NCBI GenBank assembly: GCA_035048485.1
Contig: CM068587.1
Coordinates: 49,746,496 to 49,810,495, forward strand
DNA: 64,000 nt
Direction of reading: 5' to 3'
From: Pteria penguin
Lineage: Eukaryota; Mollusca; Bivalvia; Pterioida; Pteriidae
The notes under the pieces are model-generated. The model ran no database searches and was not told the origin of the DNA. It worked only from the letters and a program-made list of their open reading frames with translations. The position numbers were made by a program, and so were the translations under genes. The stretch's first letter is position 1, and every line of letters starts with the position of its first letter. This document shows, piece by piece, positions 4,127 through 23,863 of the stretch.

Positions 4127-4435
4127 CTCCCGCAATAAGATAAAACATAAAAAAAACCACGGAAAAACTAAAACTAATAAATAAATAAACAGAAAAAAAA
4201 AACGCAAACAAAACAAAGCAAAAATAATTATAATAAAATAAATAGATGAATAAAATAGATAAGATATTAAAAAAAAAAAACAAATAAACCCAAAACATAC
4301 CATTATCTAAGTACACACGGAGATTCCGATCCGATTGTAAAACAAGAAAAATGGACTGGCCATTAATTCTGATAATTATTTTTACAATGTTATTTCAAAT
4401 ACACATTATTATTTATTATTTATTTTGAAGGGATT

Positions 4436-4757
4436 ATGGCCCCTTTTTCTATTCTGGTCCTCGCCACGGTTGGATTGGCATACGGTTACGACCTCCAAGG
4501 AGCAGGCGGGGCAGCCTACAACTCTTTATGGAATGACCTTGACCTCGCAGACATCTACCCTCTACGAGAGTTAGGGAGAGGACGCATGGACGATTTCTAT
4601 AAAGACGACTTTGCCAGCAGAAGTTCCCCAGACAGCGACTGGTCGCTGTTGAATTATCGTGACCAACCAGAACCGAATGATATCTTCAGCGAAGCATCGA
4701 TACGCGACCAGGAATACACCGAGCATAGTCCCTTATGGGGCTATCAATCAGTATCAG
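4436..4757 (+). CDS. SCG5: 7B2 exon 1 (coding)
   Basis: Codes residues 1-107 plus the first base of codon 108. The ATG opens the signal peptide MAPFSILVLATVGLAYG and is the only start giving one. Donor CAG|GTACGA at 4758; phase 1. The region after the signal peptide is rich in Asp, Glu and Arg with no known domain, as usual for 7B2 N-terminal halves. Confidence 0.88.
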
Positions 4758-7700
4758 GTACGACGATATCCCGAGTCATATGATACATTAGGGTTCATGC
4801 GCGGATCCAGAAATTTTTGTCAGAGGGTGTCCAACCAAAAAAGGTAAATTTTTCTCTTAGACGAGGGTGGGTGGGTTTCCAACCTTTTTTTGGTAAAATT
4901 TTCGGATGCTAGGGGGGGGGGGGGGTTTCAGACACCCCCACTCTTCCCCCCTCTGTATCCGCGCATGGGGTTTGTAAATTCCTTTAATAGGAACGACAAA
5001 CCTAATATGTATGATGCAGGATTACTTAGAGTAGCATATTACAATGAGAATTACAACATTCCGTGTTTGTATGATTCTGTGTTATTATTTCCCCGCGGTA
5101 AAGTTGTGGAGGGATAATAGCATCGCTTGTATGCGTCCGTGCGTGTGTCTATGTGTATGTGTGTCTAAAACCTTGCTTAAAAGTTACAAGAACGCCAACT
5201 CTTGCATGTGCCATTTTTGATTATGCCATCTTCTGAAGAGACGGCAACCTTAGTACAATGAATACATGTTATTTTGGGTTGCTTGAGGTAGCACACCCCT
5301 CCGAAAGAACAACTTGACAACATCAGTATACATGTTCTTGGGTTATTAAGTTTAGGTGTAACTTTCTATCAAGAATGACAACTGTGTGAATCTCAGTTAA
5401 TGAAGGTAGCACACCCTTTTGTCAAGAACGACAGCCTTTTTATTTATGTTTCGTAAAGTTGAATCCTCCGACATAACGGCAATCGTAGAATGGATAAGGT
5501 ATATGTATTAAAATTCTTTATATGATGCTAAATATGCGATTCTTAGCAACTCAAGACAGCAAGTTACCGTAGTAAAGTAGTGGTAACTCTTATTCCATCA
5601 GTTATGTACGTTCGTTATTTTCTGGTTACAATTATGTCATGCGCGGATACACAGGGGGGGACCCCCTCCCCCCTGGAATCCGAAAATTTTACCAAAAAAA
5701 GGTAATATTTGGGCATTTTGGGGGTTGGACCCCCCTCGTCTAAGAGAAAAATTTACCTTTTTTGGTTGGACCCCCTCTGACAAAAAATTCTGGATCCGCG
5801 CATGTATGTAAAGGTGATTCCTTTCCTAACGATGACGGTTAAACTTAGACGGTAGAGTGCTTGCTTGGCTGGCTCGTCACGTGTCCGAGTCCAGTCGCCA
5901 GCTCGTCGGTTTCCTATTGGACATAAAAACCAAAGACTCGTGTCCCGGTAAATATAACACATTAAAATCCCTAATTGTTTTGGTGGATCCGTCAAGCAGA
6001 TGCTTTCACCATATACGTGCAATAGTCTTGACGTAAAACAAAACAAACAAAAAAACAAAAAACAAAAAACAAAACAAAACAAACATTTTCTTGCGAATCT
6101 AAGTATAAACAATAAGTATATACAATCTCATATTATTTTCTAGGCGGAACCGGAGACGGTAAAGAACATCCGAAGGAAGTGAAGACTGACAAAGTCCTCC
6201 CTGCTTACTGTAATCCTCCCAATCCATGTCCTATCGGATATACAGGTAACCATGACAACACAAAATACATAATATGTAAACTTTTAATGCAAAGATAACA
6301 ATAAATTTGGCGAATTTCAGCCAAGCATGTAGCATGAAAATGAATTTGAAAGTTATTTTGTGTTATTGATAACGGTTTCACCGATCAATTTGCTTTAAAG
6401 AAAAGTAAGTTGTTCTTGTTTCCAACCAGACGTCATATCAGAACAGAAACATAACATAAATTTATAAAGTTATATGCAACCAACCATGTGTATAAAACTT
6501 ATCTCAAGTTGTCTTTGGTGTAGTGGTTAAGCGCTTGTCTTGCGGCGCCGACGATCCGGGTTCGATTCCCGGGTTGCGCCACTATGTTTAAGAGGTTGGT
6601 TACCTCCTGCTTCCATGTCGCGATATAACTGAAAAATTGTTGAAAGCGACGTAAAACACCAATCAACCAACCAACCAACCAACCAAGTTGTCTTTTTTAT
6701 GCTTACTTCCTATGTAAAATGTAAGTTGTTCTGAGATGACGTCACAGTCACGAAAGATGGATATTCGAATTTTATAGAAAAAAACATACGTTTCCATGCA
6801 GCATTTGTCATGCTAAAAATGGTAAATCTTGACTTCAAAATATAATCAGTTTCGATTAAAAAGAGAAAAAGGGAGAAATACATTTTCATTAAATCTTTAG
6901 TAGGTAGTGTCATTATTTATTATAATAAACGAATATTTCTTTCTCCATTTCATAAACTACATCTTTAATGAATTATAGAGTAACACATATACCACACAAT
7001 GAAAATGAGATGAGTCTGTATATAAACGAGCGATTTGAGTACCGCCAATGGCGGAGTAGAGGGTGAGGGTAGGGGAAGGGGGATTAAGATATCTGTCCAG
7101 TTTTGCGTCTTTATCTCAGCATAAAAATCGTCATAAATTATAGAACTATGATATTCTATACATATTTGATCTTTGTCGCTTGTTTTATGGCCTCAGGTCT
7201 ATAGTTCGGAGACATATTATTTTTGATCTGTCTGTTGATGTGCGTGTTGATTTGTCTGTGGGCAACTTTAATATTAGACATAGCTTTCAACAATACCACC
7301 CAGTGTTTCATATTTCACGTTTACCTTTTGGCAAGACATTTTCACAGGTACCGTAATTTATGACACTGTGACCTTGCCCTTCACGTTTAACCTACATTTA
7401 AAAAATCTTTTGATTAGGGCATTGATATGGCACATGTGTGACATCAGTTACTTCCGTATTTTACATTGTGGTCAGACCTTTCCATTGATACCTTAATTTC
7501 TTACCTTGTGACCTTGATCTTCATGTTTGACCTACATTTAGATCATCCTTGGAGGCCAGTGTTTTAATATTTCACGTGTGTGATCCTTGTGGTAAGATCT
7601 TTTCACTGATACCATAATTTATGATCATGCGACCTTGACCGTCAACTTTGACCTACATTTAACCTTTATCATTAGAAATTATTATTGGCTTTAACATTTG

Positions 7701-17049: not shown

Positions 17050-17365
17050 ATATACCATTATATGAAATTCTATCCAAATTGGTGTCCCCTTGCAATATTA
17101 TTTCCATACTCTACACCATGCATAATGTAAACTCTATCTAGACTGTTTATCTTATCATGTCATTTTATCCAAATTCTGTATCGGTCATTGCCTAACTTCT
17201 GCCCAGACTCCATATAGGCACATTTTTATTGAAAATTCTATCCAGAATCCATATGGGCACTATGTAAAATTCTATCCAGGCTCCTTTGACTATGCAATAT
17301 AAGATACTTTCCAGACTCTGTATTGATGTTATGTAAATTCTATCGAGACTCTAAGCATGTCTCTG
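17050..17365. repeat. Degenerate tandem repeat in the 3' flank of the CBM48 gene
   Basis: Five or six loose units of 45-60 bp sharing TATGTAAAATTCTATCCAG, then ACTCC/ACTCT and ATATGGGCA. Directly downstream of the stop codon in the - strand gene, so probably transcribed in its 3' UTR. Confidence 0.5.
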
Positions 17366-17464: not shown

Positions 17465-17518
17465 TCAACACACAACAATGATGTTGTTCTCTAGTCCATC
17501 ATCGGCAACCTTAACAGG
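17465..17518 (-). CDS. CBM48 protein exon 7 (last coding)
   Basis: Acceptor TATTTTTAG|CCTGTT. Codes PVKVADDGLENNIIVVC then TGA at 17467-17465. Supplies the last CBM48 strand with the glycogen-contact Asn646; ends with a C-terminal cysteine. Confidence 0.85.
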   Translation of the reverse strand, partial: PVKVADDGLENNIIVVC

Positions 17519-20500
17519 CTAAAAATAGAAATAATATATTCTGATACATACATAGACAATAAGTGGATCAATTCTCCGAATGGAGCATAATCCAAAATGA
17601 ACTGCTTTAAGGTCTTAGTTGCATGGGTTTATATATTTTTGTTTGAAGATGTCATTGTATTGCGTTTTCATAGAATTCTGTTCAGTAAATTTTTGTCAAT
17701 TACTTCCCAAGCTGGATTTTCCTTGGGTGCAATTAAACCATATGAAATCAGGCTGTGTTAAAAATAGACTTTAAATTCTAGGGAGGTCTGTAATGCATGT
17801 GCAAGACTGTGGAACAAAATTAATGTATATATGCACAGTCAGGTATGAAAGGGGATAAAGTGAAGTAAATGAAGCCTAAAAGACACCCTTGCACCTGTCA
17901 TTTGATAACTTTTCATTTTACTGATCAAAAGTGATCACTTTAATTAATTTGAATATTAATATTGTATAAAAAGTAAACTTTTCTTCTTGACACACCTTTT
18001 GTAATGGCAGATTTGTGGAATCATACAATTTCTTCTTCATAGTTACATTATACAGATGATTTCCGATAAATAGAATCTATTGTTAGGGTATGGTAATGAT
18101 AAAGAAATCCACTAACACGCAAGTGTCAAATGAACTTAATCCATGCCTAGGCTTAACTGCCAAGACATGGACAAGTTAATGTAATAGGAAGGTTTGTGAA
18201 TTACTTATTACCCTTGACCCTAAAGATTGATTTTTTTCTCCCTTTCCCTTCTTTTCAATGAACCGGTTCTTCTTGTTTTTTCATCTGGACGAAAGTAAAA
18301 ACTTTATGCCCCCCCCCCCTCACAAATGCTCATGTAACGTCATAGACACTGCAGCATTATGGCATCATGAAATAATCAGTACATGTCCCGTATCATCTTC
18401 CTTACTGATACCAAGCAAATCGGTCCCTGTGATAACTCTGTGAATATGGGAGACAAATACGGAAAGCAGGCATAAAAACTAGCTGATATGTAACGATCAT
18501 AATCAAAAATGATCTAAGTTTTGAAGTATTAAAAATAAAGAATAAGATTTCTTACGTTTTTCTTGTTGATAAGCCATTTGTCATCGACCAAAAATTTGTA
18601 CAAGTGCTCTCCCTTTGGTAGGTCTAGTGTGACCATAAATACGTTTTCGCCGCTGAAAACAAAAAACAAGTTAACAATGAAATTTAAGGTCACTCAGTAA
18701 AAAAAAGGGCAAAAAAAAGTAACAAGAAAATAAAATAATTCAAAGTCATTCTACTTTCTTTCGTTTCAACTAAATATCATGTATTGAATAGGATTATCTT
18801 TCTTGAATTTTTTTTTTTTCGCAGGAGAGAAAGCTTCCCTTATTGGTAGCATACTTCAGAAAATGAATTTTACTGGCATATTTCCCGGTGTATCAGACTT
18901 TGCCCCAAGTAGTTCTATCTTACAATCCACTTAAGACCTTGGTATCGAGCTTGACCTACTTTTTCTTGAGAGGCACTTGATCCTTCCAGTCGTTGAATGA
19001 CCCAGTAACAAGAACAGTTTCTCCATCTTCTTCCCAGCGGAATTCTGTTGCAACAGTCTCACTCTACAATGATAAAAAAGAAGGGAGTTAAAGACAAAAT
19101 TTGATAAAGAATATGCAAATTAAATAGGCAGCTTCAATTTGTGAGAATTAATGTAATGAAGAAAATAATTAGATGTTCATTTCTTTGGTGACTTACCATA
19201 AAATGTAACTCCATTTTGCTATTGATCCAGACTTTAAAAATATTATTTGATTCTAGTAAAATCCAAAACAGGTCCATGTTTTGTGAATATTCACAATCTG
19301 TGGTCAATTCTATTGAAGGCCATATTTTGCAGCTAGTGACCTATTCTATATTTTTTTTCTATCTGAATTGCATTAGAACAAGGTCCACATTATCACCTGC
19401 TGTAAAGTAACTTAATTCTAATTCAATTAAATGTACCTCTAATACCAGTATCAGTTTTGAATTCAATGAATTGGCTACACTGCTATTTTAAGGCTCTTTA
19501 ATTCAGAAACACAGTCTTTCCCTACAGTCTGCAATTTCCTGAACAGAATTAATGAATGAATTAAAGATCTTAAGTTCTGTTCAAGAGCTTTTCCCCCTTT
19601 TTTCCTCTGCCTCTTTCCCTGAATATGCTAAAGTTTAAACACATTTTGTATCATACTATTTCTTTTATCATTTTCTCTTTTTCCAAACATTGTCGAAGCT
19701 GGTGTGGCCTAGTGGATAAGGTGCTTGGCTCGTGACCAGGAGGTCTCTGGTTCGACTTCCGCACTGGGCGCACCGGTGTTCTGTCTTTCGGATAAGACAG
19801 TGAAAACCAAGGTCCCGTGGCACGTAATAATCCCTCACTGCTTCGGGTGGGTCTATGCCCATGCATAAGGCAGATGCCGTCACCATATACGTGAAATAAT
19901 CGTGGAGTGACGTAAAACAATATTCAATCAATCAATCAATCAAAACATTGTCGAATTCTGAAATTGAAAAAAAATAGATGTGAAACACCTCCATATCTAC
20001 CTCCTTCCTTTCTTTGTGTCTACATATTACTATAAATTGCCATACCTGCACATCTCCATTTTCTACTGGTTTGTCTTCCACTGCTGGCTCAGTTGTCTCC
20101 TCCTTGGGAGGTTCTGTGACTGGCTGTTCTGGAGGGGTATCCTCCTCCTCCTGCGCAATCATAGATAGCAAAGTTCAAATATTGAATACCTCACTCACCT
20201 ATGGTAAAAGCTCATATCTCTAATATGACTTGAAAACAATTATAGTTTACATTATGTAAATAACTTTGCTTTGGTAAATAAAGCATACTATAGAAAAGAA
20301 CGTTTTTTTTTTTCAATTATTCCTTGATATGCTGATTATTCAATTTAATGAATAATTTTTTCAACATTGACATATTTAGTGGTTGGGGGAGCTAGGGGCT
20401 ATCCCAACCCTTTTTTGACTGATTAAACACTTATATCAAATTTCAAATTTAATCTCCACTCAGGCAACCGAAAATATATTGCAAAGTTTTTGCCCTTAAC

Positions 20501-23500
20501 TCCTCCCTTACCATCGATTTGCTTATTTTACCCTTGTAAAAACAAGTGGAAAAATTGAAAGTGCACATAAATGTACATGTACGTGTGCAGCTGAAAATTT
20601 GGAATTAAGCCAACAAATAGTATCAAGAGTGACCTTTTAAAACAAAATATAATATGTTATTATTCTGAAAATTTCATAAACCACTTATTATCTTTAATTG
20701 CCAAGGCTTGTTTATCGCAAGTGCTCGCTCATTGCAGGTGCCCGTCCACCATTGCTAACACTATGCGCTGCATTCATACCCACATGCAGGTCTTATAAAT
20801 GTGTACACCTTCTATGCCATGCAAATGATGAAATAGATGAATCAATGTAATTTTAATTAGCTAAAATAATGTTTTATGAATTAGAAAATACAGTACATTC
20901 TTAACACATTAATGTAATATACGAATATATATTAAGTCAATACACAAAACACGTGGGCGTACAAGCCTTTTACTTCACCGTATAATACTCATGAAACGAC
21001 AAAAAGAAAACAGACACAATTATTGACACCGATATCTTACCTTCTTTTCCTCCACTACCGCCTCTTCTTTCTCTTGAATTTCCTCTGTTTTCTGTTCCGC
21101 TGACGTTTCCGGTTTTGCTTCATCCGCTTCTGCCGGTTTCTCCTCTTCCTTTTTTTCTTTAACTTCCTCGGGTTCTTTCGAGACTTCCGATTGGTCGGCA
21201 TTTGTTTCTTCTGATTGTTCAGGCTTACTGTCTACTGATTGGTCGGGTTTAGCCTCTTCTGATGGGTCAGGCTTTGTGTCTTCCGATTGGTCAGATTTCG
21301 CTTCTTCTACGTTAGGTTCTTCTGTTTTTGCATCATCTGATTTTTCTGTTTGTACATTGTCCGTTTGTTTCACATCCTCTGTTTTCTCACTATCTAAAAC
21401 AGTGTCATTTGTTTCTAATTTTGGTTCACTAACTTCAGAAGATGGTTGTCCGTTAACCGTTTCCTTTTCTTCATTTGCAGGTACTTTGGCTTCCTCTGCC
21501 TTTGTTTCTTCGGGCGTTACCTCCGCGGGTTTTGTTTCCTCGGTCTTTTCACTTGATTCCTCCTATTATAAATTTCATTATTAATGAACATTTTAAGTCT
21601 TCATTTTCATTTAGGAAGGGGCATTCTAATGCTACATATCTATACACTGCAGATATATTTTCAAGAGAAAAGCTTAAGCGTTTCTAAGTACGTAAAGAAT
21701 ACGAAAAAGAAGAGAAAATAGCTTATATCATAGCTATACTCTAGGTAGAAATCCTTGTGATAAAATCTGACAATTTAATATTCGAAAAAGTATTTTCCGT
21801 TTATATAAATTGCATAGTTATCGAAAATAATGAAATTATCTTATCATGAAAAGTCTACAACTAGAAAACCTGAGAGCTTAGTACATTATTTATAACGGTG
21901 CCGTCAGATGTTTCTTTTATCACACTGTCGGCAAGACCTTCATCAGCGGCTGAACTGTCATTGGTTTGATGTACTAATACTGTGTCTGTCGGCTCAACTT
22001 TATCTGTTGGTTCTGGGCATGGTTCCCCGCATGTTTCAGCATTTTCTTTTGTGGTTTCCTTTTCATCTGTTGTATTAAGATCGACCAAATTACTTGTACT
22101 TGTTTCCTCCAACACGGTTGTTGCATTATCTGCAGATTCCGGCAAGATGACTGGTTCACTTGGTTTGACGTCATCGGATGACGTAACAGTCTCCGATATT
22201 TGGACAGACTGGCCTAGATCTGAAGATACAGGATCTGTTTCGACCTTAGCTGACGGAACTTTATCGTTTGCGTTGCTTTCTGGACATATATTATCATTTG
22301 GCGATGAAACAGGTTGTATAACATCATTGTTCGACACCATGTCGGATGTATTGTCATTTAATTTGTTTGTATCAACTGAAACAGTTGTTGAGTTATCGGT
22401 GTTGCTTTCAGATTGGACAGAGGGCGCCACTGGTTCACTTGAAGATTGTTTCTGTTCATCAGATGATTGCACGAACTCATTTGAAGATTGTACAGGTTCA
22501 CTGGGTGGTTGCTCATTTAAAGACTGTCCGGTCACAGGTTCAGAAACTGGTTCTACTTGTTCACTCTTGCACTGTGCTAAATCTTTAACCGGTTCTGTTC
22601 CATTTGAAGAAATTTCTCCCTTTGTGTCCGGCATTTCGTTGGTTTCTTTTTCTGTTGCGTTTGCAGATTCTCTCTCTGGTTTAGAAGATTTATCGCATTC
22701 TGCGTTCGGTTCCTCTTTGCCGCTTTCGTGTCCGGCCTATAGTTTATAGTAAAGTGACAACAACTGAGAAATGAAATGAATCGGTCTTGGCCATGAAGGG
22801 GAGCTAACTCTAATTTGACAAAAATAGTGATGATGGTGATTTTACTTCCTTCTTAGAATGCCATATATAATAGATTAGGTATTTAGAATGAAATTTTTAA
22901 GATTTATACAAGATGCAATCGCCATTCGTGACCAAGAAACCGTCGTATTAAGATGTCAAGAGAAACAAATGCTTTCAAGTAAATTTGGAGATTTTTTTGC
23001 CTTTCTTTTGTACCGTATTGGTTTTGTTTTCTTTGTTTTTTTTCCCATATATTTTCACAAAATTGGATGGATATCAAGTCATATCTAATATTCCATCACC
23101 TCTCAAATATTCAAAATGAGAAAACATTCTGTGATACTGTGTAATCCCTGAAGACGTCTGCGCATGTCGCAATTTTAAGTTACGTAACAGTTCTAAATGC
23201 AGAGAAACAGTTGTTTTCCTCGTTTTCTGCCGAAGAAACTGTGTTTGTAAAGCATTTATTATCTCTATGCTGAAAAAAGATCAGAGAGATAAACAAAACG
23301 ACGGAAGAAAAAGAATCAAATAGAATATTTAGAATTGCATCACCAAGGAAATGAGATGTGAAAAGAAGAGGCTTCTTTCACCAAAAGTTTGCATGCGCAG
23401 ATACTAAAATCTAAATGTTGCAGATTTGAGAGCAAAACAAAACTAAATTTAAGAACCATTACCAAAACTTCAATACCAATGTGACGAACCGGAAATAAAG

Positions 23501-23863
23501 TGACGAAACCTTTACCAAACAACGATTTTAAATTATGAATATTTTGCAATTGTAAACTAAGTGAATCAATTGAGATGTACGTACAACATCCAATTCTTCA
23601 GAGTGACATTCGAACATGCACTTTATCCTGTTACCCCTTAACAATGCACTTACCTTTTTGTCAGGTTCTTTTCCGTCGTCCGCTCCTTCTCCCCCGCCTT
23701 TTTCATCTTTATTTTCATTAGTTTCCGCAGGTTTGTCGTCTGCAGGTTTTTCGGCCGATGCGCCATCTACCGGTTTGTCCTCGACCTTTCCATTGGTTTG
23801 CTTTTCAGTTGCTTCTTCCTCGGTCTTATTTTTCTTCTTCTGTTTTCCACTTTTATTTCCCAT
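17465..23863 (-). CDS. Predicted myristoylated acidic protein with C-terminal CBM48 glycogen-binding domain, seven coding exons
   Basis: Joined exons (reverse) 23863-23654, 22736-21870, 21562-21041, 20150-20046, 19063-18960, 18652-18556, 17518-17465 give 652 residues. The start MGNKSGKQKKKNK fits the N-myristoylation pattern (Gly2, small residue at 6) with a Lys cluster that would aid membrane binding. Residues about 20-568 are Glu/Asp/Ser/Pro/Thr-rich and lack a fold. Residues about 572-652 match the AMPK beta CBM48 domain: FRW 576-578, GSFNDW 589-594, LPKGEHLYKFLVDDKW 614-629, ENNII 645-649. Trp594, Lys622, Trp629 and Asn646 align with the four known glycogen contacts of AMPK beta (W100, K126, W133, N150). 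The protein stops three residues after the domain, so the AMPK beta C-terminal part that binds alpha and gamma is missing; it is not an AMPK subunit. A role in tethering glycogen to a membrane, by analogy with STBD1, is inference. Confidence 0.85.
18556..18652 (-). CDS. CBM48 protein exon 6
   Basis: Acceptor TTTTCAG|C, donor AAAAAC|GTAAGA. Codes the end of codon 603 and residues 604-635, including YKF and DKW with two of the carbohydrate-contact residues. Confidence 0.9.
18960..19063 (-). CDS. CBM48 protein exon 5
   Basis: Acceptor CATTGTAG|AGTGAG, donor AAAAA|GTAGGT. Codes residues 569-602 plus two bases of codon 603: TEFRWEEDGETVLVTGSFND then WKD. This is the N-terminal half of CBM48. Confidence 0.9.
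19698..19942 (+). mobile_element. SINE family 1, intact copy in intron 4 of the CBM48 gene
   Basis: Head GCTGGTGTGGCCTAGTGG, B box GGTTCGACTTCC, body ATCCCTCACTGCTTCGGG, CACCATATACGTGAAATAAT, tail (CAAT)n. Perfect 13-bp target duplication AAACATTGTCGAA at 19685-19697 and 19943-19955. Antisense to the host gene. Confidence 0.92.
20046..20150 (-). CDS. CBM48 protein exon 4
   Basis: Acceptor TGCGCAG|GAG, donor GTGCAG|GTATGG; 105 bp, phase 0 at both ends. Codes residues 534-568, Glu/Pro/Thr-rich (EEEDTPPEQPVTEPPKEETT), the end of the acidic spacer. Confidence 0.82.
21041..21562 (-). CDS. CBM48 protein exon 3 (acidic repeat spacer)
   Basis: Acceptor ATAATAG|GAG, donor AAGAAG|GTAAGA; 522 bp, phase 0 at both ends. 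Codes residues 360-533, rich in Glu, Lys, Ser and Pro, with loose repeats of about 9-10 residues of the type KPDQSVDSKPEQSEE. Likely disordered. Confidence 0.82.
21870..22736 (-). CDS. CBM48 protein exon 2 (Ser/Thr/acidic spacer)
   Basis: Acceptor AACTATAG|GCC, donor TCTCAG|GTTTTC; 867 bp, phase 0 at both ends. Codes residues 71-359, rich in Ser, Glu, Asp, Val, Pro, Asn, with SSNE/SSDE/SSSE echoes. The complementary strand is also open over this exon; that is a compositional by-product. Confidence 0.8.

Follow-up and report, generated by a model that had tools for sequence, protein, structure and literature searches.

A Predicted Gene of the Bivalve Pteria penguin Combines a Myristoylation-Type Start, a Long Acidic Spacer and a Terminal AMPK Beta-Type CBM48 Domain

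The Locus and Its Gene Model

A 64,000-nucleotide stretch of the genome of Pteria penguin (C8:49746496-49810495, where C8 denotes contig CM068587.1 of assembly GCA_035048485.1), hereafter the window, contains on its minus strand a predicted gene with a terminal carbohydrate-binding module (CBM) of the family CBM48. Seven exons, running from 23863 to 17465 in window coordinates, join into a frame without internal stop that encodes a protein of 647 amino acids (aa), which begins with MGNKSGKQKKKNK, runs on through a low-complexity acidic chain of about 550 residues and closes with an AMPK beta-type CBM48. The assembly comprises 838 Mb in 49 contigs; the gene appears to be real and single-copy.

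Exon 1 (23654..23863; aa 1-70) carries the N-myristoylation-like, Lys-rich start followed by an acidic and Lys-rich part of the spacer, and ends at a GTAAGT donor. The spacer continues through exon 2 (21885..22736, 852 nt; aa 71-354), which is acidic and rich in Ser, Thr and Glu, and exon 3 (21041..21562, 522 nt; aa 355-528), rich in Glu, Lys and Pro, to its final acidic part in exon 4 (20046..20150; aa 529-563). The CBM48 is divided among exon 5 (18960..19063; aa 564-597 and two bases of codon 598), which includes Trp589 and is followed by a phase-2 intron, exon 6 (18556..18652; one base of codon 598 and aa 599-630), which includes Lys617 and Trp624 and is followed by a phase-0 intron, and exon 7 (17465..17518; aa 631-647 and the TGA stop), which includes Asn641. 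All six introns are bounded by GT-AG, the ATG at 23863 has a TAG in the same frame directly 5' of it, and an AATAAA that is, as a pattern match alone, a possible polyadenylation signal lies on the same strand at 17225..17230, 234 nt 3' of the stop.

The preliminary description of this DNA, whose overall observation is confirmed here, had placed the ATG at 23863, the stop ending at 17465 and seven minus-strand exons between them, and the rebuilt model is the same, with an open joined frame. Its residue numbers were 5 higher, which is consistent with an alternative exon 2 donor 15 nt further on (exon to 21870) that adds VLSSQ; both donors look weak. The coding frame has no stops in exon 2, against 10 and 34 in the remaining sense frames, and none in exon 3, against 7 and 18. 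Random first-order sequence of window composition was never open over the length of either exon (0/20,000 each), and with the exon's own composition it was open in 0/20,000 trials for exon 2 and 14/20,000 for exon 3.

The N-Terminus and the Spacer

The start MGNKSG fits the looser PROSITE-type myristoylation pattern, six Lys lie within residues 4-13, and residue 5 is Ser. No hydrophobic membrane segment was found when the whole protein was scanned, the top 19-residue hydropathy being 0.7, at residue 602. The protein has an isoelectric point (pI) of 4.2 and a net charge of about -100; the pI of the spacer is 4.05 over aa 71-354 and 4.10 over aa 355-563, and only one aromatic residue occurs in its roughly 550. 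The spacer is probably disordered. A long acidic low-complexity chain had been described earlier with a length of about 500; the chain stands, and its length is nearer 550. There are 27 S/T-x-x-D/E patterns in the spacer, presumably CK2-like. An RVxF-type docking pattern was not found in the protein, in a scan that covered few other motifs, and the LIR-type pattern does not occur in the protein outside the CBM. Within exon 3, Tandem Repeats Finder marked degenerate 24-nt (8-aa) tandem repeats at 21184-21308.

The CBM48 Domain and Its Relation to AMPK Beta

The CBM48 assignment made earlier was borne out by a profile search, in which Pfam AMPK1_CBM matched aa 567-646 with 84 bits (cut-off 26.8; E 8.9e-24), stopping one residue short of the protein's stop, and the best sequence relative in the PDB is the AMPK beta2 CBM (E 6.2e-19). 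The CBM20 family was not listed for the protein at E up to 1. In beta1, W100, K126, W133 and N150 are critical for the sugar site (PMC4032982), and Trp589, Lys617, Trp624 and Asn641, respectively, align with them. The position of AMPK Ser108, which when phosphorylated steadies the drug site between CBM and kinase (PMC4995730), is Asn598.

Known AMPK beta proteins continue into a C-terminal domain for alpha and gamma subunit binding, AMPKBI, and a Pfam search found none in the 647-aa protein. The genome-wide search for this domain gave one match, at C8:11,326,987, inside the true AMPK-beta gene of the host (C8, about 11.303-11.327 Mb; likely first exon MGNTSSAK), 38 Mb off; the search worked exon by exon, missed the other C-terminal exons of the true gene and is thus not exhaustive. 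Across the window and the 6.5 kb that follow it, the C-terminal domain exons of the true gene had no counterpart at E <= 0.3, the top window matches having E 0.37 or worse. The earlier claim that the AMPK C-terminal region is missing therefore holds for the protein and for the window with these 6.5 kb.

Both introns within the CBM have the same position and phase in the window gene and in the host AMPK-beta gene: the former is a phase-2 intron in the codon for Asn598 in the window gene and Ser in AMPK beta, and the latter a phase-0 intron before the Pro of PVKVAD in the window gene and of PTVAND in AMPK beta. The two CBMs are identical at 34 of 78 aligned residues, and the closest relative of the host AMPK-beta CBM is human, with 48 of 77 residues identical to beta1. 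Because both CBM introns match in position and phase and both proteins start with MGN, the window gene and AMPK beta probably share common descent. The label "non-AMPK" given earlier may hold for function, whereas by descent, judged from the introns and the MGN start, the protein looks AMPK-beta-related.

The two proteins have in common an AMPK1_CBM-type CBM48 with its introns, the Trp, Lys, Trp and Asn contacts, and the MGN start with a variable stretch between it and the CBM. They differ in that animal AMPK beta subunits start with MGNXXS and have a spacer of about 100 residues (PMC4995730), whereas the window protein has Gly at position 6 and a spacer of about 550; in the window protein, moreover, the C-terminal domain is missing, Ser108 of the ADaM interface is replaced by Asn598, VDG by VDD, and Leu146 and Thr148 are altered.

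As a separate observation, the true AMPK-beta gene contains two tandem mid-CBM exons of 94 nt each (L007:7242-7335 and L007:7975-8068; C8, about 11.316-11.317 Mb), which encode YKF...GQW and YRF...GNW, the Lys126 contact being Arg in the second version. Since both have the same phases, they are not both usable in one frame; they are probably mutually exclusive and could tune glycogen binding.

Proteins of Similar Layout

Three protein searches at E <= 0.001 listed 2 of 54, 1 of 8 and 6 of 53 candidates. Animal proteins may be few in the protein database, and these counts therefore cannot show how rare the layout is. One unnamed database protein, P0003 (363 aa), consists of a MGGKSSKQKKNKK start, an acidic spacer and a CBM48, after which it ends, and both of its ends lie in a single reading frame on one 1516-nt contig. 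Its CBM pairs with that of the window protein in the tree (support 97/97; 48/82 residues identical), and the four critical sugar contacts are identical in the two proteins even though 34/82 CBM positions differ. The start of P0003 fits the stricter pattern MGxxxS and matches the window N-terminus at 9 of 13 positions, whereas its spacer, of about 270 residues and rich in Ala, Pro and Glu, has no evident sequence likeness to the window spacer. The start-spacer-CBM layout described for the window gene was thus met again in a second protein and is not an isolated oddity; it could at most tentatively be called lineage-specific, as the preliminary description suggested.

Several other candidates had a different layout and were set aside. 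The first search listed P0001, named a glycosidase, and P0002, each with several CBM-type repeats. P0003 was the one protein listed by the second search and was listed again by the third, together with P0004, a CBM array, P0006 and P0007, which carry the AMPK C-terminal domain, and P0005 (200 aa) and P0008 (229 aa), low-complexity proteins with a terminal CBM48 (..NNVITV) and without an MG start. P0005 and P0008 soften the novelty, as an unstructured N-terminus with a terminal CBM48 is found elsewhere, although these frames may end at exon edges. Among bacterial and archaeal genomes, 53 stretches matched the pattern and one, from a bacterium, was a relative by tblastn (35% identity), while 21 pattern matches in viral contigs included no relatives.

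Other Features of the Window

Intron 4 contains a repeat-like stretch (19696-19943) with a tRNA-like part (tggcctagtggataaggtgcttggctcgtgaccaggaggtctctggttcga...) that ends in TCAA repeats and looks like a tRNA-derived SINE. On the plus strand, a 135-aa open frame at 4376-4783 with the signal-peptide-like stretch MAPFSILVLATVGLAYGYD may belong to a secreted protein as one of its exons. An Rfam search of the window gave no matches.

Interpretation

Direct support exists for the gene model, the identity of the CBM48, the missing C-terminal domain, the intron positions in common with AMPK beta and a second, independent protein built in the same way; transcription, myristoylation, membrane binding, glycogen binding and tethering are what we infer. 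With a slight preference, we read the protein as a glycogen-to-membrane tether, AMPK-beta-related, with an MGN lipidation-type start, a spacer and a CBM48, and without the alpha/gamma-binding domain. The tether proposed earlier is supported in part, by the CBM48, the missing AMPK C-terminal domain and the layout, and corrected as to its descent. As the CBM lies at the far end from the anchor, its simplest use would be to hold glycogen at the membrane. Removal of Met1 would allow Gly2 to be myristoylated. Myristate by itself is a weak membrane hold that an adjacent Lys cluster reinforces, and together with the six Lys it would keep the N-terminus on the acidic inner membrane leaflet, a hold that phosphorylation of Ser5 could possibly switch. 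The spacer would provide a long, flexible arm on which the C-terminal CBM48 grips glycogen.

The comparison with STBD1 drawn in the preliminary description has become stronger because mouse Stbd1 is itself N-myristoylated; it resides in endoplasmic reticulum membranes, carries a C-terminal CBM20 and, when expressed in HeLa cells, leads to endoplasmic reticulum membranes with glycogen between them, although the membrane stacking is independent of glycogen binding (PMC5358331). STBD1 and the predicted window protein thus appear to share an N-terminal membrane anchor and a C-terminal glycogen-binding module. They differ in the module, CBM20 against CBM48, and in the N-terminal hydrophobic membrane segment of STBD1, which the window protein lacks, as it lacks an LIR-type pattern outside the CBM. 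Two CBM20-type exon sites occur in the host genome, at C7:47713148-47713333 and C11:8745956-8746117, possibly in laforin-, GPCPD1- or STBD1-type genes.

Several observations weigh against the tether. The start MGNKSG has Gly instead of Ser at position 6 and so departs from the stricter MGxxxS, and the N-terminal likeness to P0003 beyond MG is modest, since shuffling these Lys-rich letters 200,000 times gave 4,835 matches just as good. P0003 is the only protein of the same layout among the 54, 8 and 53 candidates. The tree leaves 7 of 10 inner branches open and does not show where the pair of the window protein and P0003 joins AMPK beta. The sugar contacts of beta1 also include L146 and T148, and contact mutants bind markedly less glycogen, the effect of L146A being incomplete (PMC2642990); these positions are Asp637 and Leu639 in the window protein and Ser and Gln in P0003. 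The earlier statement that all four contacts are present holds for Trp, Lys, Trp and Asn, while these two further contacts are altered, and glycogen binding by the CBM48, likely in itself, may for that reason be weaker or different. Finally, a transcript of the gene was not observed, and long open frames of 259 and 168 aa run antisense through the low-complexity spacer exons 2 and 3, so that openness alone is no proof of coding; stronger arguments for coding come from the splice frame, from the CBM exons and from P0003.

The missing transcript, the weak exon 2 donor and the long antisense frames would also fit a wrong model, in which the CBM exons are part of another transcript or remnants of an AMPK-beta duplicate in decay, the acidic exons being a gene of their own. 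We consider this very improbable, given that P0003 joins both ends in one frame on a single contig and that the window gene is intact in its frames, its splice sites and the core residues of the CBM. Somewhat less improbable, though still doubtful, is a membrane organizer like BASP1 or MARCKS, whose CBM48 has lost glycogen binding and now acts as a protein-binding or structural cap. BASP1, whose chain is acidic, has to our knowledge no carbohydrate-binding domain. The start and composition of BASP1 (CAP-23, NAP-22) are of the same kind as those predicted here: BASP1 is described as anchored by myristate, its positive effector domain binds acidic lipids, its Ser5 is phosphorylated and its long chain is disordered (PMC3758512). 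In addition, the Leu146 and Thr148 contacts are altered in both the window protein and P0003. However, searches with the whole protein (E up to 1) and with exon 1 and P0003 (E up to 10) did not list Pfam BASP1, and the four critical contacts have stayed the same in both proteins despite the divergence of their CBMs.

A signalling role is unlikely too, but deserves more weight than either of these: the protein may sense glycogen or glucose at the membrane and brake or guide the TOR or AMPK pathway, for example by competing with AMPK beta for glycogen. The spacer with its presumed CK2-like patterns could dock partners, whereas no RVxF-type pattern turned up in the scan, which covered few other motifs. 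Like the window protein, Abl1 of Magnaporthe and Mdg1 of yeast carry the glycogen-binding domain of AMPK beta but lack its iteration domain. For Abl1, an action upstream of TOR is reported; Mdg1 is described as membrane-bound, as proposed for the window protein, and as an eisosome component (PMC5266329). The domain is N-terminal in Abl1 and C-terminal in the window protein, and the excerpted text of that source does not mention a myristoylation-type start of Abl1 or Mdg1. By analogy, the two fungal proteins are a precedent for an AMPK-beta CBM without the AMPK C-terminal domain.

Beyond the tether itself, we suggest tentatively, at somewhat less than an even chance, that the window gene represents an undescribed family, an AMPK-beta duplicate that lost its kinase-binding half and now serves as a glycogen receptor with a lipid anchor, keeping glycogen stores at membranes without a kinase in convergence with STBD1. 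If this is true, there would be one testable gene for glycogen held at membranes outside the STBD1 family, and in this lineage the glycogen-binding module of AMPK beta would have become independent of the kinase, for which fungi offer a described case (PMC5266329). A protein called "AMPK beta-like" by its CBM alone would then not need to be an AMPK subunit.
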